A stretch of 51,215 nucleotides of DNA from Planctomycetia bacterium (GTDB taxonomy: Bacteria > Planctomycetota > Planctomycetia > Pirellulales > PALSA-1355). The translations under genes were made by a program, and so were the position numbers. The stretch is from positions 1 through 51,215 of the forward strand of contig JACQFF010000245.1 in assembly GCA_016200205.1 (NCBI GenBank), given 5' to 3'. Shown piece after piece: positions 14,769 through 43,304 of the stretch. Numbering within the stretch: position 1 is the stretch's first letter; each line of letters begins with the position of its first letter. The notes under the pieces are model-generated. The model worked only from the letters and a program-made list of their open reading frames with translations, did no database searches and was not told the DNA's origin.

Positions 14769-14801
14769 GCACGGCCGCGGATCGGCTGACCGTTGCGCTC
14801 T

Positions 14802-15797: not shown

Positions 15798-16023
15798 GAC
15801 CTTCCTTTCCATTCCAATTCGAGAGAGCAGCGAAACCGGCCCCGCTTGGTTTTGGGGCTGCCCGCTCGGGGTGTCTTGGTCGGCGCGGGAAGATACCAGC
15901 GTTCGGACGATGATGTCAAGGCGGGTTTTCGACGAGTTGTCGGACTGCCGGATGGCTGTGCGTCTGACGATGCGCGAGGTCTTTGTCGCTTGCAAACAAC
16001 ATGGTTCCGTTGCGGTAGTTCAC

Positions 16024-16782: not shown

Positions 16783-16834
16783 GCCTGCAATACTCCGTTC
16801 CACGGTCGAAATTCGCGACTGCGGGTGCCAAGTT

Positions 16835-19648: not shown

Positions 19649-19653
19649 CCGCG

Positions 19654-20862: not shown

Positions 20863-21145
20863 AACCCCGGCCCCAGTCGATGCGCTGTGAATTATGGTGA
20901 ATTCGCGAGTTCTTCGCGGCCGCGGAAACCGCCTGACATCGTCCAAGCAAGCATTTCGCAGGGCCGGGAGATTAACATAACTGGCCGCTCGTGAGAATGG
21001 TGATTTTGCACGCGCAGAAAAGTCCCAGATCGCCACTAACGACTTCGAAACCTCATCGCCGGCCGGGTACCCGTCGATCGCGCCGGCATGTAAAATTCTT
21101 TGGGACCTATCGACAGGCGTTTTTTACCGCTTCGCAGGTGTCAGC

Positions 21146-24793: not shown

Positions 24794-26455
24794 CTACTTG
24801 CTGGCCGCTTCGGCCTCGTCCTTGTCGATCAATCCATCGCGATTCGCGTCGAGCTTTTGAAAAGCTTCCAACGGGCCGACGAATTCCTGCGGGCTCAGGT
24901 CGCCGTCGTTGTTGCGATCCATTTTGCGAAACCAGAGGGGACCGCTGGCGTTGGCCTTGGCCGTGGAACGCACCGCCCGGTTCGGCATCACGCTGGCGTC
25001 GGTCTCGACTCGGCCCACGCCGCGCACGAGCTTGAAATGGATGCGCTGCGGGATCTCGTCTCCATTGAGCGTGCCGTCGGCGTTCTTGTCATAGACGGCC
25101 AGAATATCTTTCGCGCTGCGCAGTTCACGCGCCGAAAGCACGCCGTCGGAATCGGAATCGAGCATCGTGAACAAGTCCTGTCCAAAGTCCCTGACTTCCA
25201 ACAGCAGGCGGACAGCCGCGGCCGCGTTCTGGCGATCGACGTAGGGGGTGAATTCGCCTTTGACCACCTTGCCGTCGCCGTCGACATCCATTGCGGCGAA
25301 CGCGGCGGCGGTGATGTTGTTCTGCTGCGCCTCGTTGAGATCGATGTAGCCGTTGTTGTCGCGGTCCGCCGTGCGGAAATTGCCGGCGTCGGTTTGCCGC
25401 GGATCGTGGTTATCGCGCTCGAAATTGATTTCGACTTCCCCGCCTTTCACCTCGTAACCGTCCAGAAGCGTTTTGCGCACGCGGAATTCGGCGGTGGAGG
25501 AAAGGCGTTGCCGATTGCGGCTTGCGGCGGCCCGCGCCTGGCCAAGCGCGAAGGGCAATTCCAAATCCGCCCTTCGATCGGCGAATTTCAAAAGCTCCTC
25601 GCGTTCCAGTGTCCCGTCTCCGTTGCCGTCGAGCTGGCCCATCACCGCCAGCGGCAAGCTGATCTCGATGCCCGGCGCGCTGCTGGTCAGCCGGCCGTCA
25701 TGATTGTGGTCATAGCGCTTCAAGAGCCCGTCGGCGATATCGGCGGGCGTGGTGAACGAAGTCACGAGCAGGACGGGAATATCGTCCTGGCTGACGGCGC
25801 GTTCGGCGCCATTGGGATCGGCGGCGGCCGCAATCGCATTCGGATCCAGAATCAATTCCCTCGGCGTGATCACCAGGTCGTCGTCGAAATCACGTTGTCG
25901 CAACTGCCGTTCCGCGTCGTTCAGCTCGTTGGCCGAAAGCTGCTGGTCGTGATCGGTGTCCAGGAGCGGAAACAGCGCCAGAGACGAACCCTGCGTAATC
26001 AACGCTCGGCGGCGAACCGAAAATGGCGGCACGGTTTTTTCGGCGTAGGCCAAGAGCGCCTGGCGATCGACCTTGCCGTCCGCACCGGCGGTCAAAGCAG
26101 AATCTTTGGTCCCCGATTTCGGCAGATCGTGCCGCATGTCGCCGTGCATGTCGGCCACGATTCGCTCCGCCTGGGTCAGGCTGATGCGTCCCTGGCGGTC
26201 ACGATCCTCTTGGGCGAACAACTCGTCGAATCGCTGCCGCCAAACCTCGCGAAACGGCTTGCCGTCGACTGTGATCCGCAGCCGCACGAGCAGGGGCCGC
26301 ATCGGACCGAGGAACACGATGTCCTGAACGTCCGTTGGCGGCAGCGAGCTGGGCTTGACGATCTCCGCGGGGTCGCTGGCGCGCGCGAGACGAGCCGCCG
26401 AGCAGTGGAACACCGGGCCGATGACTAGTAGCACCAGCCCAAAGGCCGCCTTCAT
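24794..26455 (-). CDS. Secreted multi-EF-hand calcium-binding protein
   Basis: A 553-residue exported protein made largely of EF-hand-like loops. A signal peptide covers about residues 1-21. Good loops occur near 166 (DTDHDQQLSANE), 249 (DHNHDGRL), 276 (DGNGDGTLEREE), 364 (DRDNNGYIDLNE), 390 (DVDGDGKVVKGE), 433 (DSDSDGVLSARE), 456 (DKNADGTLNGDE), 513 (DRNNDGDLSPQE) and 536 (DANRDGLIDKDE), with weaker ones near 84 and 124. It probably binds several calcium ions outside the cytoplasm. Its ATG overlaps the stop codon of the upstream DUF1501 gene (ATGA, 26452-26455), so it is co-expressed with DUF1501 and DUF1549. Direct role unknown. Confidence 0.92.
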   Translation of the reverse strand: MKAAFGLVLLVIGPVFHCSAARLARASDPAEIVKPSSLPPTDVQDIVFLGPMRPLLVRLRITVDGKPFREVWRQRFDELFAQEDRDRQGRISLTQAERIVADMHGDMRHDLPKSGTKDSALTAGADGKVDRQALLAYAEKTVPPFSVRRRALITQGSSLALFPLLDTDHDQQLSANELNDAERQLRQRDFDDDLVITPRELILDPNAIAAAADPNGAERAVSQDDIPVLLVTSFTTPADIADGLLKRYDHNHDGRLTSSAPGIEISLPLAVMGQLDGNGDGTLEREELLKFADRRADLELPFALGQARAAASRNRQRLSSTAEFRVRKTLLDGYEVKGGEVEINFERDNHDPRQTDAGNFRTADRDNNGYIDLNEAQQNNITAAAFAAMDVDGDGKVVKGEFTPYVDRQNAAAAVRLLLEVRDFGQDLFTMLDSDSDGVLSARELRSAKDILAVYDKNADGTLNGDEIPQRIHFKLVRGVGRVETDASVMPNRAVRSTAKANASGPLWFRKMDRNNDGDLSPQEFVGPLEAFQKLDANRDGLIDKDEAEAASK

Positions 26456-27795
26456 CCAAGGATCTCCGCGATGGGCTTGGCCGCCGGATCGACCACGCGA
26501 ATCGGCCGGCCCACGTTCGAAACGTTTTGCTTCATCGGATCGATACCCAACGCGCGGACGACCGTGGCCAGCAGATCGGGCACGGAAACCGGATGCTCCT
26601 CGACCGTGGTGCCGTCCGGGCTGGTGCGTCCGATGACCTGGCCGCCGCGAATGCCACCGCCGGCCAGGACGGTCGACCAGGCGTTGGGATAATGATCGCG
26701 TCCCTTGTTGTCATTGATCTTGGGCGTGCGGCCGAATTCGCCCATCCAAACGATCGTGGTCGACTCCAGCAGGCCGCGCGATTTCAAATCGCTCATCAGG
26801 CTCGCCCAGGCCGGATCGAGAATGTTCGAGAGCTCGCGCACGACATCGAAATTATCCTGATGCGTGTCCCACGTTTTTCCATCCAGCCCGCCGAGCGTCA
26901 CTTCGACAAATGGCACGCCGCGCTCGACCAGCCGCCGGGCGAGCAGACAGCCTTGCCCAAAACGATTCTTGCCATAGCTCTCGCGGACTTCGGCCGATTC
27001 TTCGTCCAGATCGAAGGCTTTCGCCGCTTTGCTGCGCATCAGCATCACGGCTCGATCGTAGGCCGTCGTATAGCCCACGGCCGGAGCGCCCGAATGAGTG
27101 CCCACAAAGCGGTCGTTGAGTGAATTCAAAATGCCCAAGCGGGCGTTGACCGTGGCTTCGCTCACTTGCTTGGGCGCGTTGAGGTCGGCGACCGTCAGGT
27201 CGTATTCGTCTTCATTTTGATTCCGTCCGCGGGCTTCGCCGACGAACAATGGCGCGAATTGCGATCCCAGGAAGCCGGGGCTGAACGCCGCCGCGCTGAA
27301 GGCCCGAAACGGCGAGATGCTGACAAAGTTGGGCAGCTCGGCGGCCGGGTTGCCCAGCTCTTTGGCCACCAGCGAACCGAGCGTCGGATAGCGAACCGGC
27401 GGCTGGGGCAAATAGCCATTGCGCAGCAAATACGTGGCGCGTCCGTGGTCTCCTTCCTTGGTGCTCATCGAACGGATGATCGCCAGATGCTCCGCCATCT
27501 TGGCAATTCTGGGAAAATGCTCCGAAATGCGAACGCCGCTAACCGAAGTATTGATTTCCTTGAAGGTTCCGCCGTTGGCGTGGCCCGGTTTCAGGTCGAA
27601 GGTGTCCATCTGGCTGGGACCGCCATTCATCCACAGCAAGATGCAAGCGCGCTTGCGGTCGGAGGGGAACACCGTCTGGCTGGCCATGGCCTCGAGCCAG
27701 GGAAATGTCGAGGCGCCTACCAGGCCGGCCCACGACAAACGCATCAGGTCACGCCGCGACAATTCAGCGGACGACCAAGGGGAAGTTCGGCTCAT
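26452..27795 (-). CDS. DUF1501 family exported protein (second copy)
   Basis: About 447 residues from ATG 27795 (MSRTSPWSSAELSRRDLMRL), with GAGGTG upstream; 71 residues ahead of it in the frame are unsupported. A twin-arginine signal (LSRRDLMRLSWAG) directs export. Family motifs are LLWMNGGPSQMDTFDLKPG, STKEGDHGRATYLLRNG, VWMGEFGRTPKINDNKGRDHYPNAWS and LAGGGIRGGQVIG. It is closer to the typical DUF1501 pattern than the copy at 1,226. It lies downstream of a DUF1549/1553 gene and overlaps the EF-hand gene start. Molecular activity unproven; fold class is alkaline-phosphatase-like. Confidence 0.93.
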   Translation of the reverse strand: MSRTSPWSSAELSRRDLMRLSWAGLVGASTFPWLEAMASQTVFPSDRKRACILLWMNGGPSQMDTFDLKPGHANGGTFKEINTSVSGVRISEHFPRIAKMAEHLAIIRSMSTKEGDHGRATYLLRNGYLPQPPVRYPTLGSLVAKELGNPAAELPNFVSISPFRAFSAAAFSPGFLGSQFAPLFVGEARGRNQNEDEYDLTVADLNAPKQVSEATVNARLGILNSLNDRFVGTHSGAPAVGYTTAYDRAVMLMRSKAAKAFDLDEESAEVRESYGKNRFGQGCLLARRLVERGVPFVEVTLGGLDGKTWDTHQDNFDVVRELSNILDPAWASLMSDLKSRGLLESTTIVWMGEFGRTPKINDNKGRDHYPNAWSTVLAGGGIRGGQVIGRTSPDGTTVEEHPVSVPDLLATVVRALGIDPMKQNVSNVGRPIRVVDPAAKPIAEILG

Positions 27796-27857
27796 GGGTT
27801 CACCTCGTCTCGGGAATGCCTGCTCGGTCTGAAAGAATACAATCCCGGGTGGCCGAG

Positions 27858-27888
27858 ACAGCACGGCTGTCTGGGTCGCGAAGCGACA
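27858..27888. repeat. Two adjacent short hairpins
   Basis: Two perfect stem-loops sit three bases apart: GACAGC-ACG-GCTGTC (27858-27872) and GTCGC-GAA-GCGAC (27876-27888). They lie in the 224-bp gap between the DUF1549 and DUF1501 genes of one operon. They may be a fragment of a dispersed palindromic repeat or an mRNA processing/stabilising site. No T-run follows either hairpin, so a terminator is unlikely. Confidence 0.4.
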
Positions 27889-28019
27889 AGAGGTTCTTGA
27901 ATCATTTTCGGTCCCCTCGCGTGCCTGCGGCACCCCGACACCAAGTTGTTGCTCGCCACCCTCGTGCATGAATTCTAAACGGGATAATCTCTCATGCGAT
28001 TGAGACACTACATTCGCTG

Positions 28020-29675
28020 TTAATGGTTGAGAGCAAACTCGGCACTGTTGAGCAGTGCCCAGAACACGTCGGCCAATGCCTTTTTCGGATTACGGTCGAC
28101 GCCGCCGCGTTCGACGTGCTCGACCAATTGGGTCAGTTCTTCCGGCGCTGGCTTGCGCGAAAGTGCCGTCATGAACAGCGCTTCGACCCGTTGGTGGTTC
28201 GACAAAAACGGCGCTTCGGCCACGGCCGCCAAAGTGTCACTCTTCTCCAGATCGGTGGCGTCGCTGACCAGTTTGCCGTTCATCAGCGCCAGGGCCTGCA
28301 AGATCGAAGTCTCGGCTTCGGTGCGAGGCACGCTCTGGTCGGCGAATCGCTGCCGAAATTCGGCCGCCGCGCTGGTCAGATCCGGCAATGCGCCGCGCTG
28401 CGTCGGACGCGGGCCCTCGCGGAAACCGGTCGCCTGGACAATGCTGGCGAACAGTTGGTCTGCGGTCATGCGCCGCAACGGCATGTGGGCGAATTGCGTC
28501 AAATCGCCTTCCCCGGCCGAGGCGGCGCGGCTCGAGAGCTGATAAGCCCGCGTTGCGGTAATCGCGCGGATCAGATAGTTCAGGTCGAAGTGATGCAGGG
28601 CAAATTGCCGCGCCATTTCGTCCAATAGTTCGGGATGCGAAGGGGGATTCGCTTTGTCCAGATCGTCCACCGGGTGTACGAAGCCGCGGCCCAGGAAATG
28701 TTCCCAGAGCCGATTGACCGCAGAGCGGGCAAAGAAAGGATTATCGGTCTGGGTGATCCATCGCGCCAGTAAGTCTCGTTTGGCGCTGCCGCCGGCCCAA
28801 TCGGGCCGCGAGCCGTCGAGAAACGTCGGCTCTACGACAATCTGCGTGCCGGGAATAACGATTGCATTGGAACTTCCACCCTTGGCGGGCTGCGATGCCT
28901 CGACTCCGACGGCCATCATGGCGGGCCGGTCGAAGAACGCCGCCATCGACCAAAACTCGCGCCGCGTCCAGTGCGAGAACGGATGATCGTGGCATTGGGC
29001 GCATTGCACTTGCACGCTTAAGAAGATGCGGGTCGTGCTGGCCGCCAGTTGCTCGGGCTTTTGCTCGTTGGCCTGGAAGAAAGCCGACGGGCTCGGCACC
29101 GCCCGGCCGCGCGCCATCGGCGCGGGCGGTTCGGTGGGTGAGTTCAGCAGTTCCGTGACCATGCGGTCGTAGGGCGTGTTGACCGCGAACCGTAGGCGCA
29201 ACCAGGTCTCGAATTGCGGAATCAAGCTGCTCGTCTCGAAGCTGTCGGCGGCTCCGGCCAGCATCAGTCCGCGCCAGGTATTGGCAAAGTGCTGGGCGTG
29301 GGCGCCCTTGCGCAACAGATCGTCGACTGCGCGGGCTCGTTTGTCCGCCTCGGAGTTTGCCAGAAATTCCTGAAGGGCGGTCACCGAGGGAATCTTGCCG
29401 GCCAGGTCCAAATAGACGCGGCGCAGGAATTCGGCGTCGGCGGCGGGCGCTGCCGGCTGCACGTTCGCTTGTGCCCAAGCGCTAGCCAGGGCTCCATCGA
29501 TGTGGGCCGTCAGTTGTGCGAAGTCGAGAATCGCGTCCTCAGCCGCCGCTGGAGGAGAACATTGGGGCGTTTGGCCTCGCACCGCGGGTGCGCATAGGCA
29601 AACGGCGCTCATAAGCGCGGTCAAAAGCCTACGGCTCCAGGGCGCAAGGAACAGCCAAAACCGCTGAAATTGCAT
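28020..29675 (-). CDS. DUF1549/DUF1553 exported protein without PSCyt1
   Basis: A 551-residue exported protein of the DUF1549/DUF1553 group. A signal peptide with a long n-region ends near residue 35 (CAPAVRGQ). DUF1549 starts near residue 80 (DAEFLRRVYLDLAGKIPS) and holds CAQCHDHPF (Cys225, Cys228, His229). The DUF1553 part includes NPFFARSAVNRLWEHFLGRG and LSRKPAPEELTQLVEHVE. The cytochrome-like PSCyt1 domain and the inserted LamG-like region of the copy at 2,678 are missing, making this about half as long. AGGAG lies seven bases before the ATG. It heads an operon with DUF1501 and EF-hand genes. Haem binding at CxxCH is not established. Confidence 0.92.
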   Translation of the reverse strand: MQFQRFWLFLAPWSRRLLTALMSAVCLCAPAVRGQTPQCSPPAAAEDAILDFAQLTAHIDGALASAWAQANVQPAAPAADAEFLRRVYLDLAGKIPSVTALQEFLANSEADKRARAVDDLLRKGAHAQHFANTWRGLMLAGAADSFETSSLIPQFETWLRLRFAVNTPYDRMVTELLNSPTEPPAPMARGRAVPSPSAFFQANEQKPEQLAASTTRIFLSVQVQCAQCHDHPFSHWTRREFWSMAAFFDRPAMMAVGVEASQPAKGGSSNAIVIPGTQIVVEPTFLDGSRPDWAGGSAKRDLLARWITQTDNPFFARSAVNRLWEHFLGRGFVHPVDDLDKANPPSHPELLDEMARQFALHHFDLNYLIRAITATRAYQLSSRAASAGEGDLTQFAHMPLRRMTADQLFASIVQATGFREGPRPTQRGALPDLTSAAAEFRQRFADQSVPRTEAETSILQALALMNGKLVSDATDLEKSDTLAAVAEAPFLSNHQRVEALFMTALSRKPAPEELTQLVEHVERGGVDRNPKKALADVFWALLNSAEFALNH

Positions 29676-29812: not shown

Positions 29813-29925
29813 CGGCCTAACGGAACAAAAACTGGGCGCGCGATAGCTCAGCTAACGTGCGCGGGGTGGAGGTTTCTGTGCTGGCTCTCGCACTCAACAG
29901 ATCAAGCCGAGGAGGGTGCTGTTCC

Positions 29926-32043
29926 ATGAGTAGCACATCACCGGCTCGCCAGGAAAACGGGTGCCATGCTCACGCTCGCGGGAGGCTACGCGGAAATCCA
30001 GTTAAGGTGCCACTGCTGGCGGCCTGGCTCTCGATTTGTCTCAGTGTGCCGGCACGTGCGGTCGACGTCGTTTTTAGTACCGGTACGCTGATCGCGGAAA
30101 CCTCGACGGCTTCGACGCGCACCAAACCCACCACCTCCTTCAGTCTGCCTACTCAGTCGGCCGAGGTCAAAGATGCCCTGGAGGAATTCCAGCGGCTGGT
30201 CAAGCACCAGGCCTGGGAAAAGGCCTTCAAGGCGCTCGACACGATCACCAGCAAGACGGCCAGCGGCTACATCGATCGCAGCGACGGCGTGTTGGTCCCC
30301 AGCCGAATGCTGGTGCGCAATTTGTTGGGCGCCTTGCCCACCGCGGGCAAGAATGCTTATCGCGTCTTCTACGATTCGCAAGCCACGGCGCTTTGGGAAA
30401 AGGCCGTCGGTAAGACCGAGGTGCCCAACCTGTCGCAAATCGTCAACGATCATTTGATCAGTTCCGTCGGAGATCGGGCGGCCGACCGCTTGGGCGATAT
30501 TTATTTCGAACAAGGCGATCTCGATCAAGCCATCACCGCCTGGCGATCCATCATTACCTACTGCCCAGAAAGCAAGCTTCCCAAAGCTCAGATCTTCATC
30601 AAGCTGGCGACTGGCCTGGCGCGCAGTGGTCGGTGGGCCGAATTCCGTGACATCGAGCGCACGGTACGCGAGCGATACGCCGGCGAGGGTGTTGAATTGG
30701 GGGGACGTCGCATAACGGCCGCCGAAGAAATCGCGCGCTTGGCGGCCACCGGTCAATCCGCTGAAGTGGCGACGGCCCCGGCCTTGCCGGCCGATTTGGA
30801 TCTGCCCAGCGAGGATGACCCGCTCTGGCAGTTTCGGTATCAAAGCAAGGTCGACCCGCTCAATCCGCAACAGGCCTTCGCGCTGGTCGACATTTATGGT
30901 CGCCCGAGAGCCAACAATTTTCCGATTCCCGCGGCCGCCGACGACAAGCGGGTGTGCGTCAATTTATTCGGTTACGAGATGGCCTTCGACATCGTCACCG
31001 GCAAGCTCTTGTGGCGGACCGGCAAGTTGCACCAACTGCAAAATTTGCAGCAAATGCGCCAAAATCAGATTTCTCCCGAGCGCTATAGCATCGCGCTGGT
31101 TGGCGATCGCGTGTGGAGCGTGCTGCGGGATCCGGAGCAATTGAATCAGAATCCAGCGACCTTCGCTTTGACCGTGCGCAACGCGGCCACGGGCAAGGAA
31201 ATCTTCAGCAGCCGCAAATCGCTCTCGACTTGGAGTATCTTGGGTCCGCCTTATCCGGTGGGCAATGTCGTGTATCTGGGCGCCAATCGCAGCAATCAAA
31301 ACCGCGAATTGGCCGTCCTCGTGCTCAATGCCAGCGACGGCAAGCTGCTGCGGACCGTGACGATCGGCACGCACCAGGTCGATCAGAGCCAGGTCTATCA
31401 CGAGCGCACCGCGCTGCCTAGTTTTTTGGCGTATCGAGATCGTTTGTACGTCGATACCCATGCCGGCGCCCTGGTCTCGATGCAGTCGCAGTCGGGCACG
31501 TTCGATTGGGGCGTGCTGTACGATTCGCCTCCGCCACAGACCGGCTACTACTACAACGATTACCAACCGCCGCCGCAAAGCGTGTCCGCGCCGGTTCTGG
31601 CGGCCGGATTGCTGTTCTGCAAGGGAATGCGATCTTCGCGGCTGTTGGGCGTGCAACCCGACGGGCCGAGCCTGGCGTGGGATCGCCCCGTCTCGCAAAC
31701 AGCCATGATTGTCGGCGTGGATCAAGATCACCTGTATATGGGCGGCGAGGAGTTGGCCGCCTACAGCCTCCAAACGCAAGAATTGGTGTGGTCGACCAGG
31801 CTGCCGCAATCGGCCGGCTGGTCCGTGCCGCTGATGACGCGGAACCGGCTGTTCCAATTTACTTCGCGCGGAATCTGCGAGGTCGACAAGGCCACGGGCG
31901 CTTTGGTCCGAGTGTTCCGCGGCATCGATCTCGATTCGTTCGGCGGTTCTTTGTTAATCACTCCCCAGGCCTTGGTGACCGTTTCCAACCTGGCGATCAC
32001 TGCCTATCCTTCGAATTCTCTTTCTCCAAAACAAACTAACTAG
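29926..32043 (+). CDS. Exported PQQ-like beta-propeller protein with N-terminal helical repeats
   Basis: About 705 residues from ATG 29926, which has GGAGGG 11 bases upstream; the frame is open to 29,857. A signal segment (VPLLAAWLSICLSVPARA) follows a long basic n-region. Residues about 60-260 form TPR-like helices (GDIYFEQGDLDQAITAWRSI; LATGLARSGRWAEFRDIE). From about 290 the sequence is a PQQ-type propeller, with repeats such as EMAFDIVTGKLLWRTGK, ELAAYSLQTQELVWSTRL and EVDKATGALVRVFRG. Such proteins often act as scaffolds (BamB-like), and no PQQ-enzyme active-site set is visible. It is first in a long co-directional run that contains the MoxR genes. Precise role unknown. Confidence 0.85.
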   Translation: MSSTSPARQENGCHAHARGRLRGNPVKVPLLAAWLSICLSVPARAVDVVFSTGTLIAETSTASTRTKPTTSFSLPTQSAEVKDALEEFQRLVKHQAWEKAFKALDTITSKTASGYIDRSDGVLVPSRMLVRNLLGALPTAGKNAYRVFYDSQATALWEKAVGKTEVPNLSQIVNDHLISSVGDRAADRLGDIYFEQGDLDQAITAWRSIITYCPESKLPKAQIFIKLATGLARSGRWAEFRDIERTVRERYAGEGVELGGRRITAAEEIARLAATGQSAEVATAPALPADLDLPSEDDPLWQFRYQSKVDPLNPQQAFALVDIYGRPRANNFPIPAAADDKRVCVNLFGYEMAFDIVTGKLLWRTGKLHQLQNLQQMRQNQISPERYSIALVGDRVWSVLRDPEQLNQNPATFALTVRNAATGKEIFSSRKSLSTWSILGPPYPVGNVVYLGANRSNQNRELAVLVLNASDGKLLRTVTIGTHQVDQSQVYHERTALPSFLAYRDRLYVDTHAGALVSMQSQSGTFDWGVLYDSPPPQTGYYYNDYQPPPQSVSAPVLAAGLLFCKGMRSSRLLGVQPDGPSLAWDRPVSQTAMIVGVDQDHLYMGGEELAAYSLQTQELVWSTRLPQSAGWSVPLMTRNRLFQFTSRGICEVDKATGALVRVFRGIDLDSFGGSLLITPQALVTVSNLAITAYPSNSLSPKQTN

Positions 32044-32122
32044 ACGACCAATTGGTGCCATCGAGACGTACCGCGAGCGCTTGTCAGCACTGACGCTTTT
32101 TACGCCAGCGAGGACCCGTGTC

Positions 32123-33016
32123 ATGAAGCGACGATTCGCCTTTCGTTCACTGTGGATCTTGGGATTTGCGTGGCTCGCCTGGTCGGCCGAATGTCAAGCG
32201 CAGCCGGCCGGCTCCAAACCCGCCACCAGCGACGGGATTTCCGTCTATGGGGTCGCGGAACTGACGGCCCGTCCCAATGTGGTCGAAATCGACTTTCGCG
32301 TGACGGGCAAGGCCGAATTGACCGCCGACGCGCTGGTGAAATATCGCGATGCCAAAAAGCGCGTCCTCGAGTCGCTCGACAAGCTGAAGTCGAAAAACAT
32401 CTCGATCGAGGAACACGGTCTGACCATTTCGGCCGGCAGCATGGATTTGCAGCAGCAGCAGCGGATCCTCAACGGGCAGCAGCAGGCGCCGGCTAAACCG
32501 CAGATCGAGGTCTCCAGCACGATGCGAATCAAGCTCAAAGAGGTCCGCGATATTGCTCCCGAAGAGCTGATCAAAACGGTGGGCAAACTGCTGGACGTGG
32601 CCCAAGACTCGGGCATCTTGATCGGACCCAATCAGGCCGATCTGCTGCGCAATATGCGGATGGGTCTGGGTCAGGGGGGGAGTTCGGCGCCGGTCAAGTT
32701 CGTCGTGGCGGATGCCGCGGAAATTCGCGAAAAGGTGTACGAGCAGGCCGTCGCCGACGCCCGCGACCGTGCGAAGCGTTTGGCCAAGCTGCATCAGGTC
32801 AGGCTTGGGCCGGCGGTTTCGATCCAGGAGGTGCCGAGCACCACTTCTCGTCAAGCGGCGTACTCTCCGTATTATCCCTTCGGTTTGCCGCAACAAGACG
32901 ATGGGGATGATGGCGAATCGGGCACCTCCACGATGCTTTCGGAAATCTCCTTGAAGGTGAAGCTGCTGGTGCGATTTGCCATTGAAACACCCCCTCCGGC
33001 CACTGCACAGCAGTAG
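32123..33016 (+). CDS. SIMPL (DUF541) domain exported protein
   Basis: About 297 residues from ATG 32123 (MKRRFAFRSLW). A signal peptide runs to about residue 27. The SIMPL domain follows: ISVYGVAELTARPNVVEIDFRVTGKAELTADALV, later VYEQAVADARDRAKRLAKLHQV, then ISLKVKLLVRFAI at the C-terminus. A glutamine-rich stretch (QQQQRILNGQQQ) interrupts the domain near residue 115. SIMPL proteins are periplasmic or surface proteins of varied or unknown role. It is followed 15 bases later by the prenyltransferase-fold gene, implying co-transcription with the MoxR cluster. Confidence 0.88.
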   Translation: MKRRFAFRSLWILGFAWLAWSAECQAQPAGSKPATSDGISVYGVAELTARPNVVEIDFRVTGKAELTADALVKYRDAKKRVLESLDKLKSKNISIEEHGLTISAGSMDLQQQQRILNGQQQAPAKPQIEVSSTMRIKLKEVRDIAPEELIKTVGKLLDVAQDSGILIGPNQADLLRNMRMGLGQGGSSAPVKFVVADAAEIREKVYEQAVADARDRAKRLAKLHQVRLGPAVSIQEVPSTTSRQAAYSPYYPFGLPQQDDGDDGESGTSTMLSEISLKVKLLVRFAIETPPPATAQQ

Positions 33017-33031: not shown

Positions 33032-34129
33032 ATGGGATCGGAGACGATCACGACGAATCCGCCAGCGACTGGGCGCTCGCGTCGCGGACATTGGCCGATG
33101 TTGTTGGCGACTTGCGGCGCGCTCGTTCTCGCCGCGCCCCTGCGCGCGGCCGAAGAGGTGATGCCGAAGCACATTACGCCCAATACGCTCAAAGCCGTTC
33201 GCGCGGGCTTGGATTATCTGGCCCGCACCCAGGCCTCCGATGGCGGCTGGCACGACGAGCAAGCCGGACAAGCTTATCCGGTGGCCGTTGCCGGGTTGGC
33301 CGGCACGGCGCTTTTGGCCAACGGCAGTACGGTCTCGCGCGGCCGTTACGCGCAACAGGTCGAGCGTGCCTTGGACTTTTTGCTCTCCTGCTCGACGTCA
33401 TCCGGGTTGCTGACCGGACCGGGCGAGGACAACGGCCGGCCCATGCACGGGCATGGTTTCGCGCTGATGTTCTTGGCCTCCGCCTACGGCACCGAGACAA
33501 AACCGGCGCTGCGCGACAAAACCAAGATTGCAATCGACAAAGCCGTCAAGCTCACGGCCGAAGGCCAAAGCCGCGACGGGGGCTGGACCTACACGCCAGG
33601 CAGCGGCGACGAAGGCTCCGTCACCGTGACGCAGGTGCAGGCCCTCCGCGCCGCGCACAACGCCGGCCTGGCCGTGCCGCGCGGCACGATTGCCGAAGCC
33701 GTGCAATACATCGAACGTTGCAGCACTTCGGAAGGTGGCATCTGCTACTCGCTGCGAAACGGAGGCGGAGCCCGCCTGGCGATCTCGGCCGCCGCCGTGG
33801 CCACGCTCTATAATGCCGGCCAGTACGACGCACCCGTGGCGAATCGATGTTTGGAGTACGTCTGGCGGCACTTCAAAGCGACCAAGGGCTGGAGTAAGGG
33901 GGCGGGTCACGACTTCTATGCCCATCTGTATGCCGCGCAGGCTTTCTACCTGGCGGGCGACAAATACTGGGACGAATACTTTCCCGCCGTGCGCGATCAG
34001 TTGATTTCGATGCAAGACAAAAGCGACGGATCGTGGTATGGCGACGGGATCGGCAAACCGTATGGCACGGCGATCGCGCTGATCATTTTGCAACTGCCTT
34101 ACAAGTATCTGCCTGTTTATCAACGCTAG
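33032..34129 (+). CDS. Secreted prenyltransferase / squalene-cyclase-fold repeat protein
   Basis: A 365-residue exported protein with the alpha/alpha-barrel repeats shared by squalene-hopene cyclases, prenyltransferases and complement-like proteins. A signal segment (MLLATCGALVLAAPLRA) ends near residue 40. QW-like repeats read QASDGGWHDE, QSRDGGWTYTPGSGDE, CSTSEGGICYSL and QDKSDGSWYGDG. The DxDD motif of class II cyclases is absent, so terpene cyclisation is unlikely. It starts behind GGGGCGAGG and ends 12 bases before moxR. A binding or scaffolding role for a MoxR-dependent complex is inferred only from position. Confidence 0.85.
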   Translation: MGSETITTNPPATGRSRRGHWPMLLATCGALVLAAPLRAAEEVMPKHITPNTLKAVRAGLDYLARTQASDGGWHDEQAGQAYPVAVAGLAGTALLANGSTVSRGRYAQQVERALDFLLSCSTSSGLLTGPGEDNGRPMHGHGFALMFLASAYGTETKPALRDKTKIAIDKAVKLTAEGQSRDGGWTYTPGSGDEGSVTVTQVQALRAAHNAGLAVPRGTIAEAVQYIERCSTSEGGICYSLRNGGGARLAISAAAVATLYNAGQYDAPVANRCLEYVWRHFKATKGWSKGAGHDFYAHLYAAQAFYLAGDKYWDEYFPAVRDQLISMQDKSDGSWYGDGIGKPYGTAIALIILQLPYKYLPVYQR

Positions 34130-34141
34130 CGAGGAACCCAC

Positions 34142-35194
34142 GTGAAAGTCGCCCCCGATCCCGATCTGGCCGGTCTGGCCAAATTAAAACAAGCCCACGG
34201 ACTTCTGCGCGAGCAGATCGCCCACGTCGTGGTCGGTCAAGATGAAGTCATCGACCAATTGATGATCAGCATCTTTGCCCGGGGGCATTGCATTTTGGAA
34301 GGTGTGCCCGGCCTGGCCAAGACGTTGATGGTCAGCACGCTGGCCGACTGCCTCGCTCTGAACTTCACCCGCATCCAGTTCACTCCCGACTTGATGCCCA
34401 GCGACATCACGGGCACCGAGGTGCTGCAAGAAGACCGCGCTACCGGCGCTCGCCAGTTGCGTTATGTTCGTGGCCCGGTGTTCACCAACGTGTTGTTGGC
34501 CGACGAAATCAATCGGACGCCGCCCAAAACGCAAGCCGCGCTGCTCGAGGCGATGCAGGAGCGGCAAGTATCGGCCGGCGGGCACCGCCATCCTTTGCCC
34601 GATCCGTTTTTCGTGCTCGCCACTCAAAACCCCATCGAGCAGGAAGGTACTTATCCGCTGCCCGAAGCGCAATTGGATCGCTTTCTCTTCAAAGTATTCG
34701 TCGGCTATCCGACGGCCGAGGAGGAACGCCAGATTTATCGCGTCACAACGGGAGTCGAGCACAAGGACCTGACGAAAGTGCTCTCCGGCGAAGAAATTCC
34801 CGAGTTGCAAGCGCTGGTGCGGCGGGTACCGGTCTCAAACCATTGTCTCGATTACGCGATGGCGCTCGTGCGCGCTACGCGGACCACCGAAGAAGAAAAC
34901 CGGCCCGCTTACATCGATAAGTGGATCGCCTGGGGCGCTGGCCCCCGCGCGGGTCAGGCACTGATTCTGGCCGCCAAGGCGCGCACCGCGCTCGACGGCC
35001 GCACTTGCGTGACGATCGAAGACATTCGCGCGGTGGTCCATCCCGTGCTGCGCCACCGGTTAGTCACGACCTACGCCGCTCAGGCCGAAGGCCAATCGCC
35101 CGATAGCGTCATCGACGCTTTACTGAAGGATATCCCGGTGCGCTCAGGAGCCGACCACGTCGATGGCCACGTCGCCCAGGTATTCCGATCCTGA
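34142..35194 (+). CDS. MoxR family AAA+ ATPase
   Basis: A 350-residue AAA+ ATPase of the MoxR class. Walker A is GVPGLAKT (54-61), Walker B LLADEIN (118-124), sensor 1 ATQNPIEQEGTYPLPEAQLDRF (160-181), all typical. The start is GTG 34142 behind GAGG. MoxR proteins usually work with VWA-domain partners as chaperones for metal insertion or complex assembly, and the next genes encode several VWA proteins. The 3' end overlaps the DUF58 gene by 32 bases, suggesting translational coupling. Its client is not known. Confidence 0.95.
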   Translation: MKVAPDPDLAGLAKLKQAHGLLREQIAHVVVGQDEVIDQLMISIFARGHCILEGVPGLAKTLMVSTLADCLALNFTRIQFTPDLMPSDITGTEVLQEDRATGARQLRYVRGPVFTNVLLADEINRTPPKTQAALLEAMQERQVSAGGHRHPLPDPFFVLATQNPIEQEGTYPLPEAQLDRFLFKVFVGYPTAEEERQIYRVTTGVEHKDLTKVLSGEEIPELQALVRRVPVSNHCLDYAMALVRATRTTEEENRPAYIDKWIAWGAGPRAGQALILAAKARTALDGRTCVTIEDIRAVVHPVLRHRLVTTYAAQAEGQSPDSVIDALLKDIPVRSGADHVDGHVAQVFRS

Positions 35195-36080
35195 AGTTCT
35201 CGCGCGCATCGCCGGGCTCTCCTTGCGTGCTCGGCAAGTCGTCGAGGGCACGATCTCCGGCTTGCATCGCAGTCCTTTTCATGGGTTCAACGTCGAGTTT
35301 GCCGAGTACCGCGAATATTCTCCCGGCGACGATCTGCGCCGGCTCGATTGGCGCGTGCTGGGCCGCACCGACCGTTTCTACGTCAAGCAATATGAAGAAG
35401 AGAGCAACCTGCGGGCCACGCTGGTATTGGACTGTAGTGCCTCGATGCGCTACGGCTCGGGGCCGCTCAACAAGTTTCAATATGCCGCCACGGCCGCCGC
35501 GTCGTTGGCTACGCTGCTGGTCGAGCAGCAAGACCCGGTCGGCTTGGCGCTTTTCGACAAAGAAGCCCGCGAGATTTTGCGTCCCGCGGCCACGCAGGCC
35601 CAATTGGCGCGGATTATCGGCCTGTTGGAAAGCGCCCAGCCCAATCGCGAGACCGAGCTGGGCAGCGTGCTCGAAACACTCAGCAGCCAAGCTAAACAGC
35701 GCGGAATGACGATTGTCATTTCCGATTTGTTGACTGATTTGGATGCTTTCTACGACGGCTTGCGACGGCTGCAGTATCGAGGGCACGAGATCCTGGTGCT
35801 GCACGTGCTCGATCCGGACGAATTGGAACTACCGTTCAACGACCTGGTCATGTTTCGCGACATCGAGGGACAGGAAGAATTGCTCGCCGAACCCTGGGCG
35901 TTCCGCAAGGCGTATCAGGCCGCCATGGCGCAGTTTTTGGACGAAGTGCGCGGGAGTTGCGGCAAGCGTGGAATCGAATACCTGCTGCTCCGCACCGATC
36001 AGCCGTTGGCCGACGCCCTGAGCCATTATTTGCACTCCCGCGAGCGGCGGCGGCATTTGAATTACAAGGGACGGCGGTAG
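35163..36080 (+). CDS. DUF58 / VWA-like protein
   Basis: A 305-residue cytoplasmic DUF58 protein. The DUF58 signature YSPGDDLRRLDWRVLGRTDRFYVK lies at about 52-75, followed by a VWA-like metal site LDCSASM (Asp90, Ser92, Ser94) and VISDLLTDLDAF. It begins inside moxR (32-base overlap), and its conserved N-terminus (DPEVLARIAGLSLRARQVVEGTIS) confirms this start. DUF58 proteins are standard MoxR partners. It probably links the ATPase to membrane VWA proteins encoded downstream; the mechanism is not established. Confidence 0.95.
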   Translation: MATSPRYSDPEVLARIAGLSLRARQVVEGTISGLHRSPFHGFNVEFAEYREYSPGDDLRRLDWRVLGRTDRFYVKQYEEESNLRATLVLDCSASMRYGSGPLNKFQYAATAAASLATLLVEQQDPVGLALFDKEAREILRPAATQAQLARIIGLLESAQPNRETELGSVLETLSSQAKQRGMTIVISDLLTDLDAFYDGLRRLQYRGHEILVLHVLDPDELELPFNDLVMFRDIEGQEELLAEPWAFRKAYQAAMAQFLDEVRGSCGKRGIEYLLLRTDQPLADALSHYLHSRERRRHLNYKGRR

Positions 36081-36106: not shown

Positions 36107-38290
36107 ATGGACACTCTCAGTTTTCTCAATTCGCCGCTCTTGTGGGGTTTGGCGGCCGCGTCGATTCCGGTCCTGATCCATTTATTCTACCGGCGTCAGT
36201 ATCGCCGCATCGAATGGGCGCCGATGCGCTATCTCAAACTTTCCGTGCAGCGCAATCGCCAGCGGATCCGCATCGAACAGATCTTGCTACTATTGTTGCG
36301 CACCTTGGCCGTACTGTTGTTGTTTTTTCTCGTCGCCCGGCCGGTGATGCATGCCGAAGGGATTTCGCGCCTGTTGGGCGGCAGCAGCCGCGTGAACCGG
36401 ATCGTCTTGCTCGACGATTCGCTCAGCATGGGTTTTGCCGAAGAGGGCAAAACGGCGCTGACGCGAGGTCAGGAGGTTCTGGTCGAATTGCTTGCCACCT
36501 TCGGGCCCAAAGACCGCTTAACTCTGGTGCTCGCCTCCCAGCCCAAGCAGCCGCTGGTGCGTGAAATCGAGTTGGACGACATCGACCAGACCGTACAAGT
36601 GGTGCGCGACGTGCAGCCTTCTGAAGTCTTCGGGGCCTGGGAGCCGATTGTCGAGGCCATCGACGCGCTGCTCGCCAGCGGGTCGTATCCGCTCCACGAA
36701 GTGACCTTGATTACCGATTTGCGCCGGGCCGGCTGGGCAGCTCAACTGGGCGAGGTGGCTACTCGCTGGGCCGGCGAGCGAGTGCGGCTGCGGGTGTTCG
36801 ACGTCGGAGCTGCGCAAACCGCCAATGTGGCGCTGTTGAGTTTGGAACAAGTGGACCGCCTGGCGCTGGCCGCCACGCCGACGCGGTGCGAAGCGCAGGT
36901 GCGCAATGACACCGGCGGCGAGCTGGCCGGCTTGGAAGCCAATTTCATCGTCGACGGCAAACCGAGTCTCGTGCGTCTGCCGACGCTTGCTGTCGGCGAA
37001 ACCGCCAAAGTGCCCTTGATCGCCACCTTTCAAGAGGCCGGCGCACACTACGTGGGATTCGAACTACCGAACGATGCTCTGCCGGGCGACAACACTCGGT
37101 CTGTCGTGGTCGATGTGCAACAGAGCGTCGACATGCTGTTGGTCGACGGCGAACCTTCAAGCGATCCATTGGGCGGCGAGACTGATTTTCTGGCCCTGGC
37201 CCTCTCGCTCGGCGGCGACGAGGCCGAGGCGTTTCGCGTCGAAGTCATGACCGATTCCGAATGGGCCTCTACGCCGCTCGCGCGGCCCGACTTGCTCGTG
37301 CTGGCCAATGTCGCGCATCTCGGCGCCGATCAGGTCGACGCCTTACAGCGCTTGGTCGAAGCGGGCACGGGCTTGATGGTCTTTGTCGGCGACCAGATCG
37401 ACCCCGACAATTACAACCAACTGCTGTTCAGAGGTGGCAGCGGCTTACTGCCCGCCGCCTTGGAAAGCATTTCCGATAGCGAGTCGGCGGGTGTGCTGGT
37501 CGAACCGGCCGAGGGCTCCCCGCTGGAGGCTTTGGGCCAGTTGAGCCCGGCGGCGCTGCAGCGATTCAAGATCCATAAGACGTACGAACTGCGAATGCCG
37601 GCGGGCGAGGTCGAAGGCGTCCGCGTGTTGGCGCGCTGGAACAACACGGCGGCTGCTCCGGCGGTCGTGCAGAAGATTTTTGGTAGCGGCCAGGTGCTGT
37701 TGTGGACCACGGCTGCCGATCGCAGTTGGAGCGACTGGCCGACCGATTCGAGCTACGTGTTGGCGGTCCGCGAAGCCGCCCGCGCCATCGCCCGATCTAG
37801 CGCGACCCTCCATCGCTTCACCGCCGGGGATGCGCTGCGAGTTGACTTGCCGCAAACGCATCAGATCACCGCGCCGAACATCGAAGTGCCTGGCGGCAAA
37901 GAGCCCAAACCGCTGGTCTTGGCCGGCGCTGAACCTGCTGATGGAAAAGAGGCCGCCGCGAAGGCAGAGTCAGCGAGAGCATTGACCTATGCGGACACGC
38001 GCCGCGCGGGAGTCTACAAGATGTCGTGGCGCGACTCGGTCGCCGGCGCCATGATGGAACTGTTCGCCGTGAATCCCGATCGGCGTGAAAGCGAGCTGGC
38101 AAGGTTTTCGCCGGAAGAGTTCAAGCAGTTGTGGGGAGCGATCGAGCCGGAAGTCATTGCCGTCGGATCGGGCGGGGACACTTCATTGGCGGTTCGCGGC
38201 CAGGAAATCTGGCGCACACTGGCAACGGGTTTATTGGGTTTGTTGATTGTCGAAGCCTGCTTTGCCCGCTGGGCCGGCAGACAACGCTAA
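36107..38290 (+). CDS. BatA-type VWA membrane protein with GAT-like domain
   Basis: A 727-residue membrane protein. The N-terminus is the BatA/aerotolerance-type element LWGLAAASIPVLIHLFYRRQYRRIEW, then a second helix (about 57-78). The VWA domain has a MIDAS start LLDDSLSMG (Asp103, Ser105, Ser107) and VTLITDLRRAG later. A CARDB-like beta region follows (VRNDTGGELAGLEANFIVDGKP), then a Rossmann-like segment (VDMLLVDGEPSSD; PDLLVLANVAHLGADQVDALQRLV) that resembles class I glutamine amidotransferase folds without a visible catalytic cysteine. A last helix sits at the C-terminus (TGLLGLLIVEACFARWAG). It follows DUF58 by 26 bases. Probably a membrane-anchored partner of MoxR. Confidence 0.9.
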   Translation: MDTLSFLNSPLLWGLAAASIPVLIHLFYRRQYRRIEWAPMRYLKLSVQRNRQRIRIEQILLLLLRTLAVLLLFFLVARPVMHAEGISRLLGGSSRVNRIVLLDDSLSMGFAEEGKTALTRGQEVLVELLATFGPKDRLTLVLASQPKQPLVREIELDDIDQTVQVVRDVQPSEVFGAWEPIVEAIDALLASGSYPLHEVTLITDLRRAGWAAQLGEVATRWAGERVRLRVFDVGAAQTANVALLSLEQVDRLALAATPTRCEAQVRNDTGGELAGLEANFIVDGKPSLVRLPTLAVGETAKVPLIATFQEAGAHYVGFELPNDALPGDNTRSVVVDVQQSVDMLLVDGEPSSDPLGGETDFLALALSLGGDEAEAFRVEVMTDSEWASTPLARPDLLVLANVAHLGADQVDALQRLVEAGTGLMVFVGDQIDPDNYNQLLFRGGSGLLPAALESISDSESAGVLVEPAEGSPLEALGQLSPAALQRFKIHKTYELRMPAGEVEGVRVLARWNNTAAAPAVVQKIFGSGQVLLWTTAADRSWSDWPTDSSYVLAVREAARAIARSSATLHRFTAGDALRVDLPQTHQITAPNIEVPGGKEPKPLVLAGAEPADGKEAAAKAESARALTYADTRRAGVYKMSWRDSVAGAMMELFAVNPDRRESELARFSPEEFKQLWGAIEPEVIAVGSGGDTSLAVRGQEIWRTLATGLLGLLIVEACFARWAGRQR

Positions 38291-38371: not shown

Positions 38372-40810
38372 ATGAGCGAGTTTGTGAGCTGGTTATTGGG
38401 TTTGAAGCAAGTCCCCGACTGGGCGTCGGGAGGCTCGTGGCAAATTCAATTCCACTCCTTGCCGCAAGGTTTGTGGGCCGTCGGCTACGTGGCATTGGCG
38501 CTCTTAGGCGTTGTCGGCGTCTGGTACTTGTATCGCACCGAACTAAACAAGGTGCGGCTTAGCATCCGCCTTTTGCTCGTGACCTTGCGCTGCCTGGTGC
38601 TGACCTGCGTCGCGCTCATGCTCTTGGAATTGGTGCTGGTCGTCACGAAACGAGAATCGATTCCTTCGCATTTGCTCGTGCTGATCGACACCTCCGAAAG
38701 CATGGGCCTGAACGATCCCTACGCCGAAAACGACGCGCTGCGACGAACGGCCAGTAGATTGGGCTACGAAAACGTGGCAGAGATGCGCAAGCAAAACCGG
38801 CTCGATGTTGCCCAGCGGGCCCTCTCGGGAGTGCTCGCTGAACTGGCGCGCGACCGGGAAGTGTCGCTCTACGGCTTTGCACATCAGGAAGTCTCGCTTT
38901 CGGAAGAGGAGATAAAGTCCGCCCAGGCCAAGGGCACCCAAACCGCCATCGGCGACGCGCTGACAAGTGCGCTGGCCGAGCATCGAGGGCAACCGCTGGC
39001 GGGCGTTCTGCTGTTGAGCGACGGCCAGTCGAATGCCGGTGAGGACCCGCGTAAAGTGGCCGAGCAGGCCGGCAAGCAAGGCGTGCCGATCGTGGCTTTG
39101 GCGGTCGGCACCGACGAGGGTCCGAGCAACGCGCGGCTGGCCGCGATTGAAGCCGACCCCGTGGTCTTCGTCCGCGATACGACCGAAGTGGCCGTATTGA
39201 TCGAGGCCCACGGCATGCAAGGCCGCACCGGATTGGTCACGCTCGAAAAGCGGCAGGAGGCAGGCTGGAGCGAAGTGGGCCGCGAGGAAGTCACCTTCGG
39301 CGAAGAAACGGCATCCCGACGGCTCTCTTTCAAGCTCACGCCCGAAACGGTCGGCGAAATCGAGCTTCGCGCACACGTTTCCGACCTCGGCGCCGAATTG
39401 ACCGAGGCCGACAACTTTGCCACCCACTCGATGAAAATCGTTCGCCAGCAGATCCGCGTGCTGCTCATCGCCGGAGCGCCGTCGCCCGAAGTCCAATTCC
39501 TTCGTAACGCCCTGGTGCGCGATGCGGGCCTGGAGTTCGCCTGCTGGTTGCAAACGGCCGGCCAAGGTTATGAACAGGTGGGCACTCGCCCCATTCGCCG
39601 CTTGCCGATCAATCGCCAGGAACTCGAGCAATATGACGTTGTGATTCTGTTCGATCCCGACATGCGCGCTTTGGGCACGGCGTGGTCCGATCTGCTCAGC
39701 CAGTTCGTGGGCACGGCCGGCGGAGGATTGGTGTACGTGGCCGGAGAGATGCATACCCGCGGTCTGTTCGACGGCTTGTCGCCGGAGGAAGGCGAATCGA
39801 GCGGCCAATCGATCGACAATAGCTGGCTGCGGGTATTGCCGGTCACGGCCGACCCGGGGCTCTACCGGTCGAATGCCGAAGTGGCGTTGGGAACGCGCGA
39901 GCCGTTCAATTTGGAACTGACGCCCGAGGGCTCCGCCGATCAGATCTTTCAATTCGATCCCGATCCCGCTCGCAATCGCGAAGTTTTGGCCAGCCTGCCG
40001 GGCATGTATTGGCATTTTCCCGTGACGCGGGCCAAGCCCGCCGCGACGGTGCTGGCGCGCCACGGCGATCCGCGGATGCGCAATTCGTTTGGCCGCCACG
40101 TGCTCTTGGCCATACACCGCTACGGACCGGGCCGCACCGTTTTTCTGTCCTTCGACAGCACCTATCGCTGGCGCTATTTGCACGAAGAGTATTTTGACGG
40201 CTTTTGGGCTCGCTTGATCGATCGAGTCGGTCGCGGCAAGGCTTTGGGTGGCCGCTATCCGTTCACGCTCGGCGCCGATAAAAACGTCTATCGCACGGGC
40301 GACCGCGTGATGATTCGCGCCAAAGCCATCGATGCCAGCGAGGGTGTTGGGGCGGTCGCCGATTTGCGGGGTGAAATCGAACTTGCCGGGCAGCCTCCAA
40401 CGCCACTGGAGATGGAGCCGGTGGCCGATCAGCCGGGGAATGCCGAGGCCTCGTTCACCGCCAACGAAGCGGGCACCTACAGCGTGCGGGTTCTGCCCGG
40501 CAACATCAACGCCGGAGGCGATCCGGCCGTGCGGCCCGCCACGTTGAACTTTCGCGTCGAAACGGCCCACAATGAGTTGGACCGCCCCAAGCTCGATCGG
40601 GCCCTGCTCGAAGACGTCGCCCGCTCAAGCGGCGGCAGCGTGGTCGGCATCGAGAATTATCAGCAGATTCCCGCCGCATTCAAAATCAAACAAGTGGCCC
40701 GTTCGTTGGAATATCGTGACGAGTTGTGGGACGCGCCGATCATCTTCGGCAGCCTAATGTGTTTTTTGACGTTGGAGTGGTTGTTGCGAAAGCGCTCGCG
40801 GATGGCATAA
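38372..40810 (+). CDS. Large VWA membrane protein with GAT-like domain
   Basis: An 812-residue membrane protein. Two N-terminal helices lie at about 35-54 and 68-90. The VWA domain has a complete MIDAS: LIDTSESMG (Asp106, Ser108, Ser110), Thr191 in GTQTAIGD and Asp217 in LLSDGQS. A beta region follows, then a Rossmann/glutamine-amidotransferase-like part (IRVLLIAGAPSPEVQFLRNAL; YDVVILFDPDMRALG; GGGLVYVAGEMH) with no obvious catalytic Cys-His pair. A beta-rich stretch and one last helix (FGSLMCFLTLEWLLRKR) end it. It has the same plan as the 36,107 protein but is longer. Such proteins occur in MoxR clusters; function unresolved. Confidence 0.9.
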   Translation: MSEFVSWLLGLKQVPDWASGGSWQIQFHSLPQGLWAVGYVALALLGVVGVWYLYRTELNKVRLSIRLLLVTLRCLVLTCVALMLLELVLVVTKRESIPSHLLVLIDTSESMGLNDPYAENDALRRTASRLGYENVAEMRKQNRLDVAQRALSGVLAELARDREVSLYGFAHQEVSLSEEEIKSAQAKGTQTAIGDALTSALAEHRGQPLAGVLLLSDGQSNAGEDPRKVAEQAGKQGVPIVALAVGTDEGPSNARLAAIEADPVVFVRDTTEVAVLIEAHGMQGRTGLVTLEKRQEAGWSEVGREEVTFGEETASRRLSFKLTPETVGEIELRAHVSDLGAELTEADNFATHSMKIVRQQIRVLLIAGAPSPEVQFLRNALVRDAGLEFACWLQTAGQGYEQVGTRPIRRLPINRQELEQYDVVILFDPDMRALGTAWSDLLSQFVGTAGGGLVYVAGEMHTRGLFDGLSPEEGESSGQSIDNSWLRVLPVTADPGLYRSNAEVALGTREPFNLELTPEGSADQIFQFDPDPARNREVLASLPGMYWHFPVTRAKPAATVLARHGDPRMRNSFGRHVLLAIHRYGPGRTVFLSFDSTYRWRYLHEEYFDGFWARLIDRVGRGKALGGRYPFTLGADKNVYRTGDRVMIRAKAIDASEGVGAVADLRGEIELAGQPPTPLEMEPVADQPGNAEASFTANEAGTYSVRVLPGNINAGGDPAVRPATLNFRVETAHNELDRPKLDRALLEDVARSSGGSVVGIENYQQIPAAFKIKQVARSLEYRDELWDAPIIFGSLMCFLTLEWLLRKRSRMA

Positions 40811-43240: not shown

Positions 43241-43304
43241 GGGGGTGAACGGGCGCGGGACAGCGGCACGAACATCAATTCCTTTTAGGAATGGAGAAAT
43301 CGCA

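Follow-up and report, generated by a model that had tools for sequence, protein, structure and literature searches.

An exported alpha/alpha toroid protein with the squalene-cyclase fold is a recurring member of the MoxR-VWA operons of planctomycetes. The example analysed here lies in the window, the whole 51,215-nucleotide stretch of contig JACQFF010000245.1 from a Planctomycetia bacterium. The link between toroid and MoxR is real and recurrent, and it is not exclusive; the best evidence points to the VWA module, formed by the membrane proteins BatA and VWA, as the probable partner of the toroid.

The toroid gene (33032-34129, forward strand) starts with ATG and encodes 365 amino acids with no inner stops. 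Exactly 12 bases separate it from the GTG of moxR, as the initial annotation had stated, and this spacer (CGAGGAACCCAC, 34130-34141, +) contains GAGGAA, which could be the moxR ribosome-binding site. The moxR gene (34142-35194, +) encodes an AAA+ ATPase with AAA_3 (PF07726, 212.6 bits) and AAA_lid_2 domains and no predicted transmembrane (TM) segment. It overlaps by 32 bases the gene for a DUF58 protein (35163-36080, +; PF01882, 172.4 bits), which has the VWA/MIDAS motif DCSAS and likewise no predicted TM segment. The BatA-type protein that follows (36107-38290, +; PF07584, 59.9 bits) displays two N-terminal TM segments, a VWA domain with DDSLS, a beta-rich central part that weakly matches ThuA and a C-terminal helix, so that MoxR AAA_3, DUF58 and the BatA N-terminal domain fall on consecutive genes. 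A second membrane-anchored VWA protein (38372-40810, +; motif DTSES) has relatives whose profile matches solved BatB. The membrane protein behind it (40945-43164, +) has no Pfam match at E 0.001; its tblastn relatives occupy the same post-VWA place, which in the type B operons described below is taken by a gene matching DUF4175. Judging from gene order, the operon may also include a charged-residue-rich protein, coiled-coil-like by eye and with no Pfam match at E 0.01 (43245-45173, +), and an NPCBM/NEW2-domain protein (45810-47552, +). On the upstream side a SIMPL (DUF541) protein (32081-33016, +) ends 15 bases before the toroid gene, and for 20 of 80 toroid relatives, too, SIMPL stands immediately upstream. 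SIMPL is preceded by a beta-propeller (PQQ_2) protein that also matches TPR below threshold (29857-32043, +), and whose gene is kept in the closest toroid relatives. The 15-base gap, the 12-base spacer and the 32-base overlap suggest that these genes are co-transcribed. An anti-phage defence role was considered and rejected, as no PADLOC family matched any of six operon proteins at E 1e-5. Elsewhere in the window, positions 9672-21036 hold a mixed-strand cluster that, by eye from the translations, comprises glycosyltransferase and ABC-2 polysaccharide-export-like genes, while 1226-5800 and 26452-29675 (-) hold two gene pairs that resemble the paired DUF1501 and cytochrome/PSD1-type proteins. 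Such pairs are common in planctomycetes.

Residues 1-40 of the toroid protein are modelled with low confidence and hold the export signal, a hydrophobic 12-mer (MLLATCGALVLA, residues 23-34, mean hydropathy 2.34) behind an N-terminal RSRR; the toroid itself spans approximately residues 45-365. The protein matches the Pfam models SQHop_cyclase_C (33.5 bits, cut-off 26.1) and, barely over threshold, Prenyltrans (27.0 bits, cut-off 26.5). Three stretches, at residues 67, 179 and 328, match Q-x(2,5)-G-x-W, one fewer than the four QW-like repeats counted initially, and the remaining hairpins display decayed versions by eye. The AlphaFold2 model, built from a 61-row alignment, comprises six helical hairpins (pLDDT 88.9, pTM 0.85). 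Its top Foldseek match is the squalene-hopene cyclase (SHC) 8pak (E 9.9e-8), and among the families on the VIA list the closest is SHC 2sqc_A (Z 28.2, rmsd 2.8, 20% identity over 285 aligned residues), followed by drimenyl diphosphate synthase (26.8), single-domain cyclases (26), MmpH (24.9) and AprG (24.2), with GH76 glycosidases and epimerases also near. The Pfam matches, the model and the VIA Z-score together are more than chance would give, and the predicted squalene-cyclase toroid fold, proposed in the initial annotation, is in practice certain. It is a fold that hosts many chemistries, those of terpene cyclases, the transaldolase AprG, the hydrolase MmpH, GH76 and epimerases among them.

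The identity of the protein as a terpene cyclase was rejected on two grounds. No D-x-D-D occurs in the window protein, as had been noted at the outset, or in any of the 61 rows of alignment A2 (the window protein and 60 of the 80 relatives, hand-thinned; the relative L075, with a stop codon in the stretch, was left out), and the hopene-cyclase model TIGR01507 scores 25.8 bits against a cut-off of 431.1. No full terpene-cyclase catalytic set was found in the toroid, and its own genome encodes a separate full SHC (G000:C252) with DVDDT in frame. When the toroid was aligned with true SHCs of these genomes, the two best alignments placed DxDD on different helices; in view of these alternative registers no toroid residue is claimed as a DxDD replacement, although the ranges of the structural alignment suggest that the DxDD position might correspond to a site near His141. 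Two other toroid signatures were also sought. CxEQ is the thioester motif of the alpha-2-macroglobulin and complement thioester domain, and protein prenyltransferase beta subunits have a conserved zinc-binding Cys. The window toroid lacks CxEQ, and in A2 Cys reaches a majority of the 61 rows at a single column, 208, where the window protein has Ala. An alpha-2-macroglobulin chain was present among the Foldseek matches (rank 50, E 3.1e-4), in a listing that does not display the aligned part.

A whole-genome search of 196 planctomycete genomes detected toroid relatives in 174, in most cases several to a genome. In the best-scoring 80 of 562 relatives, which are near relatives by choice and carry titles of planctomycetes or plain 'bacterium', the next gene is MoxR in 57, BatA in 14 and another gene in seven, while two are followed by a contig end. 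The order toroid-MoxR-DUF58-BatA-VWA-X (type A) persists from the closest relative, at 83% identity, down to toroids of ∼45% identity. The culturable planctomycete Singulisphaera acidiphila carries the operon as well (locus L040). The association is also seen from the MoxR side, for which the 30 best loci, one per genome, were taken from 98 genomes searched; these were chosen by likeness to the window MoxR and include the window. DUF58 was present at all 30 and a toroid within 1.5 kb at seven. Of the other 23, 20 were viewed at 15-20 kb, and 12 of these contained a toroid, always behind the VWA gene. A toroid is therefore part of the cluster at 19 of the 27 loci examined (L146, L147 and L149 fall outside these), seven times before MoxR and 12 times behind VWA. 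No toroid was seen at the other eight of the 27, among them L200, which ends at a contig edge ∼3 kb behind MoxR.

Across 12 genomes, 20 of 107 toroid matches lay 15 kb or less from a MoxR, compared with 6.3 expected (binomial p 4e-6), although the matches are not fully independent and include six from the window's own draft genome as well as some that are pieces of a single gene. For matches at E 1e-25 or better the proportion was 15 of 43. The pairing is phylum-wide and not private to the window genome; as no full catalytic set was found either, neither of the two outcomes that the initial annotation named as refuting was observed. The remaining 87 of the 107 matches have no MoxR inside 15 kb, showing that a neighbouring MoxR is not needed by the toroid and that the basic function of the family is broader. 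The surroundings of orphan toroids (ten neighbour proteins from L150, L154, L158 and L164, together with L160) revealed no shared theme. Families f41, f65 and f66 contain nearly complete planctomycete genomes (8, 3 and 3 listed, respectively) that have no toroid match and are natural negatives, although MoxR is present in the five f41 genomes covered by the MoxR search.

The window's own genome illustrates the variety of toroid contexts. A second toroid, on contig C223, is 42% identical to the first, has a Tat-like RRHFL start and is preceded by a DUF4175 gene and the terminal part of a VWA-type gene. Contig C167 carries a MoxR-DUF58-BatA run up to the contig end and is probably the other half of the same type B operon, since the full order MoxR-DUF58-BatA-VWA-DUF4175-toroid is found in the relatives L159 and L162. 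The VWA-type fragment on C223 (L119, 3-764), which is the C-terminal part of its protein, has a sub-threshold MG2 match (20.5 bits, cut-off 32.8). A macroglobulin connection was considered and dropped, as MG2 is sub-threshold in this one type B fragment and unlisted for 12 type A VWA proteins. In a third cluster, on C269, MoxR-DUF58 are divergent from a gene encoding a toroid-DUF4159-DUF4159 fusion (L118, 1661-4240), which has a signal-like N-terminus, an SQHop_cyclase_C match just under the cut-off (25.9 versus 26.1 bits) and two DUF4159 domains (235.8 bits). Several relatives have frames of ∼812-828 amino acids in which DUF4159 likewise appears twice, some of them near MoxR and others not. 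The genome contains seven MoxR matches; four, besides those of the type A, type B and C269 clusters, have no known toroid link, and the surroundings of the one that was read, on C130, contain no toroid. Related toroids also occur in four frames of 555-659 amino acids (L003-L006, on contigs C94, C140, C250 and C3), which form a separate clade and have His141, Tyr187, Tyr296 and Tyr300; in L003 and L004 the toroid comes after a lengthy N-terminal region that contains a single hydrophobic segment.

Export appears to be general among the near relatives. N-termini were tested in 79 of the 80; 65 have a hydrophobic stretch and 13, including Singulisphaera, an RRxFL-type twin-arginine motif, so that 74 have one or both (four of the 65 have both, from the listed misses). 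On a reading of these misses, nine of the 14 N-termini lacking a hydrophobic stretch have the RR motif, and three of the remaining five look unjudgeable, reflecting a contig edge (L055), a run of N (L113) and an apparent tandem copy (L086). These data support the signal segment and the location outside the cytoplasm predicted by the initial annotation. The predicted membrane-spanning segments are residues 6-24 and 59-77 in BatA, 30-48 and 74-92 in VWA, and the VWA domain begins right after the second segment; the BatA model (pLDDT 77.8) has helices at 9-27, 51-81 and 701-722. If the arginine-rich first loop is inside, hydropathy and one homolog indicate that the VWA domains of BatA and VWA would face the periplasm. 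The homolog is BB0173 of Borrelia, a protein with the aerotolerance-regulator domain whose VWA was shown by experiment to be periplasmic (PMC5700661). The MIDAS motif DxSxS is present in almost all complete frames of relatives, 49 of 50 for DUF58, 55 of 57 for BatA and 41 of 44 for VWA.

The loci in which BatA directly follows the toroid are particularly informative. In a tree of the 61 A2 sequences and 22 paralogs, in which the long branches L166 and L005 are placed unsurely, 12 toroids with BatA as the next gene form one supported group (99/96); L081 and L110 are two further such loci outside this clade. Neither MoxR nor DUF58 was matched at any of the 14 loci, in DNA reaching 2.0-10 kb upstream. 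Eight of the 14 genomes were searched, and each has a close MoxR (59-62% identical) with DUF58 beside it. The best MoxR lies on another contig in seven of the eight, all of the clade of 12, and ∼12 kb downstream, on apparently the same contig, in L081. The toroid therefore stays with the membrane VWA genes where MoxR-DUF58 are not adjacent, which makes the VWA module its probable partner. Topology points the same way, as MoxR and DUF58 of the window have no predicted TM segment and the toroid is exported, so that outside the cytoplasm it could meet only BatA and VWA, which are anchored in the membrane. The suggestion that the protein is a client or scaffold of a MoxR-VWA complex thus holds in part: the link to the system is borne out by the genes next to the toroid and by paralogs that come last in further MoxR operons, at their 3' ends, whereas the exported toroid and the MoxR and DUF58 without predicted TM segments argue against a direct MoxR client.

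Conservation within A2 is highest in the inner helices, at 2.74 bits compared with 1.79 in the outer helices. The loops before the inner helices (N-ends, 2.26 bits) are not above those at the other end (2.49 bits), and no single barrel mouth is picked out. Polar or aromatic residues are conserved at 88% or above at 36 positions, of which the inner helices hold 14, the loops leading into these 15, the other loops four and the outer helices three; part of the 15 are QW-motif residues with a structural role. His141, Tyr187, Tyr296, Tyr300, Trp313 and Thr346 are invariant in all 83 family members compared, which include MoxR-linked, BatA-linked, orphan and TM-anchored toroids. Arg206 is found in 80 of the 83 and Tyr239 in 82. 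A GGW-x-[YFW] motif, present in all 83 and followed by an acidic residue at position 194 (Glu in 69, Asp in 14), precedes an inner helix, and both Asp193 and Glu194 are conserved in all 61 A2 sequences. From the helix assignment, His141, Tyr187, Glu194, Arg206, Tyr239, Tyr296 and Tyr300 are predicted to line one pocket. As far as sequence conservation can indicate, this pattern favours a role in ligand binding or catalysis over that of a mere scaffold; the earlier description of the protein as 'non-enzymatic' is not supported, as the invariant inner-helix residues resemble a candidate substrate pocket. Since they are common to orphans, they provide no specific argument for VWA docking.

We propose that the toroid is a periplasmic accessory subunit of the planctomycete MoxR-DUF58-BatA-VWA system, a reading that we consider an even bet. 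The toroid would sit outside the inner membrane, docked on BatA, VWA or both by way of their VWA domains, which are predicted to be periplasmic; an envelope ligand would be bound, and perhaps turned over, in the conserved pocket, while the cytoplasmic MoxR-DUF58 pair would use ATP to remodel or mature the assembly that spans the membrane. NorQ and NorD, the MoxR/VWA maturases of nitric oxide reductase, are a precedent for the MoxR-DUF58 step (PMC9976466). As many paralogs have no nearby MoxR, the toroid module must act in other settings too. The same precedent lends itself to a rival that we regard as rather unlikely, yet the most serious of those considered, namely that the toroid is a periplasmic enzyme, whose substrate could be, for instance, a glycan, a lipid or a sugar, and that MoxR-VWA is its maturation or assembly machinery and not a structural partner. 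The invariant polar and aromatic inner-helix residues shared by MoxR-linked and orphan members, the varied enzymes among the closest structures of the fold and, in some relatives, a Tat-like signal, a route for folded proteins, are all consistent with this possibility. However, no known catalytic set is recognised and DxDD is absent, orphan toroids manage without an adjoining MoxR, and most relatives have a plain hydrophobic segment and not a twin-arginine one, so that maturation by cytoplasmic MoxR before export would not be general. These same N-termini weigh on the idea that the toroid is itself a MoxR client, on which MoxR-DUF58 would act in the cytoplasm before Tat export. The 13 Tat-like motifs and the position directly before moxR in 57 of 80 relatives would suit it, but the ordinary hydrophobic segment of 65 of 79 N-termini and the persistence of the toroid with BatA-VWA where MoxR is not adjacent make it distinctly improbable.

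Two other explanations are less probable still. That the protein is a genuine cyclase of terpenes or lipids, relocated out of the cytoplasm and altered in its acid motif, draws on its closest solved structures being SHCs and on the GGW-x-[YFW] motif and acid 194 before an inner helix, the type of place that DxDD occupies in SHC; the hopene-cyclase score, the lack of DxDD in all 61 sequences, the ambiguous alignment to real SHCs and the separate SHC of the same genome make this very hard to credit. Equally little weight is given to co-location without functional meaning, in which an abundant family would now and then fall beside MoxR genes. Genomes with up to 26 toroid and 19 MoxR matches, and the many toroids far from any MoxR, are what such chance would offer; the excess of close pairs over expectation, with the reservation on independence given above, the gene order retained down to ∼45% identity and the recurrence of the linkage in differently built operons speak against it.

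The accessory-subunit proposal can be given a sharper form, which we consider quite unlikely, by analogy with complement. In it the membrane-anchored VWA domains would grip the exported toroid through contact between their MIDAS metal and a carboxylate of the toroid, for which Asp193 and Glu194 are candidates, the toroid would present or sense the pocket ligand, and MoxR-DUF58 would reset the complex from the cytoplasm. The TED domain is itself a toroid. A VWA domain binds TED through the MIDAS metal and an Asp in the TED-CR3 complex (PMC9005620). Unlike complement C3d/TED, the window toroid contains no CxEQ, and the likeness is one of analogy only. If the MIDAS-grip reading is true, the operon would encode a trans-envelope MoxR machine, with a bacterial counterpart of the way in which CR3 contacts the TED of C3.

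Many bacteria and archaea possess MoxR ATPases, and for many of the VWA partner systems the client and the events outside the membrane are obscure. A recurring, exported, single-domain toroid is a concrete and purifiable candidate partner, through which the periplasmic side of Bat-type MoxR systems becomes testable. The findings also concern a large family that sequence models sort with prenyltransferases and squalene cyclases despite the missing terpene cyclase motif. The MoxR-VWA operon kind is known; the toroid as a standing MoxR-operon member was not found in print, in a literature search that most subscription papers fell outside. Another squalene-cyclase-type gene in a surface-structure locus is arCOG03396, which is found in the type IV pilus loci of most Thermococci; in the accessible text of that study, squalene cyclase and MoxR are in different loci (PMC4858521).

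The window protein resembles squalene-hopene and other class II terpene cyclases in its alpha/alpha6 toroid, and differs from them in being single-domain and exported, in lacking DxDD and in scoring far below the hopene-cyclase cut-off. Its operon shares a MoxR and VWA core with the MoxR-vWA ternary systems of Kaur et al. (2020); the window MoxR passes the Pfam bpMoxR model (48.5 bits, cut-off 27) and a beta-propeller protein is encoded nearby. In contrast to the ternary system (PMC7159879), BatA and VWA of the window carry no beta-propeller family by Pfam, and none is listed for the members of alignments A3 and A4. In subsystem 4 of that study the variant P-loop is often GXXXTAKS (PMC7159879), while the window MoxR has GVPGLAKT (by eye) and fits AAA_3 far better. 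By these two features the window operon is not the beta-propeller ternary system. Alphaproteobacteria possess MoxR-DUF58-DUF4159-DUF4175 clusters, and DUF4159 was matched in a Caulobacter control. DUF4159 and DUF4175 recur in planctomycete clusters of this kind, but there, in L118, DUF4159 forms a fusion with a preceding toroid domain, and toroids are found on their own as well. The MoxR-DUF58-BatA core, which is of the known Bat type, resembles the BatA-BatE/MoxR-DUF58 aerotolerance operons of Bacteroides, Borrelia and Leptospira, with which the window shares MoxR, DUF58, a two-TM BatA with VWA and a BatB-like second VWA (PMC5700661). The accessible text of the Borrelia paper does not mention a toroid (PMC5700661), and the planctomycete operon extends the Bat arrangement by the exported toroid, by SIMPL and, after VWA, by another membrane protein.
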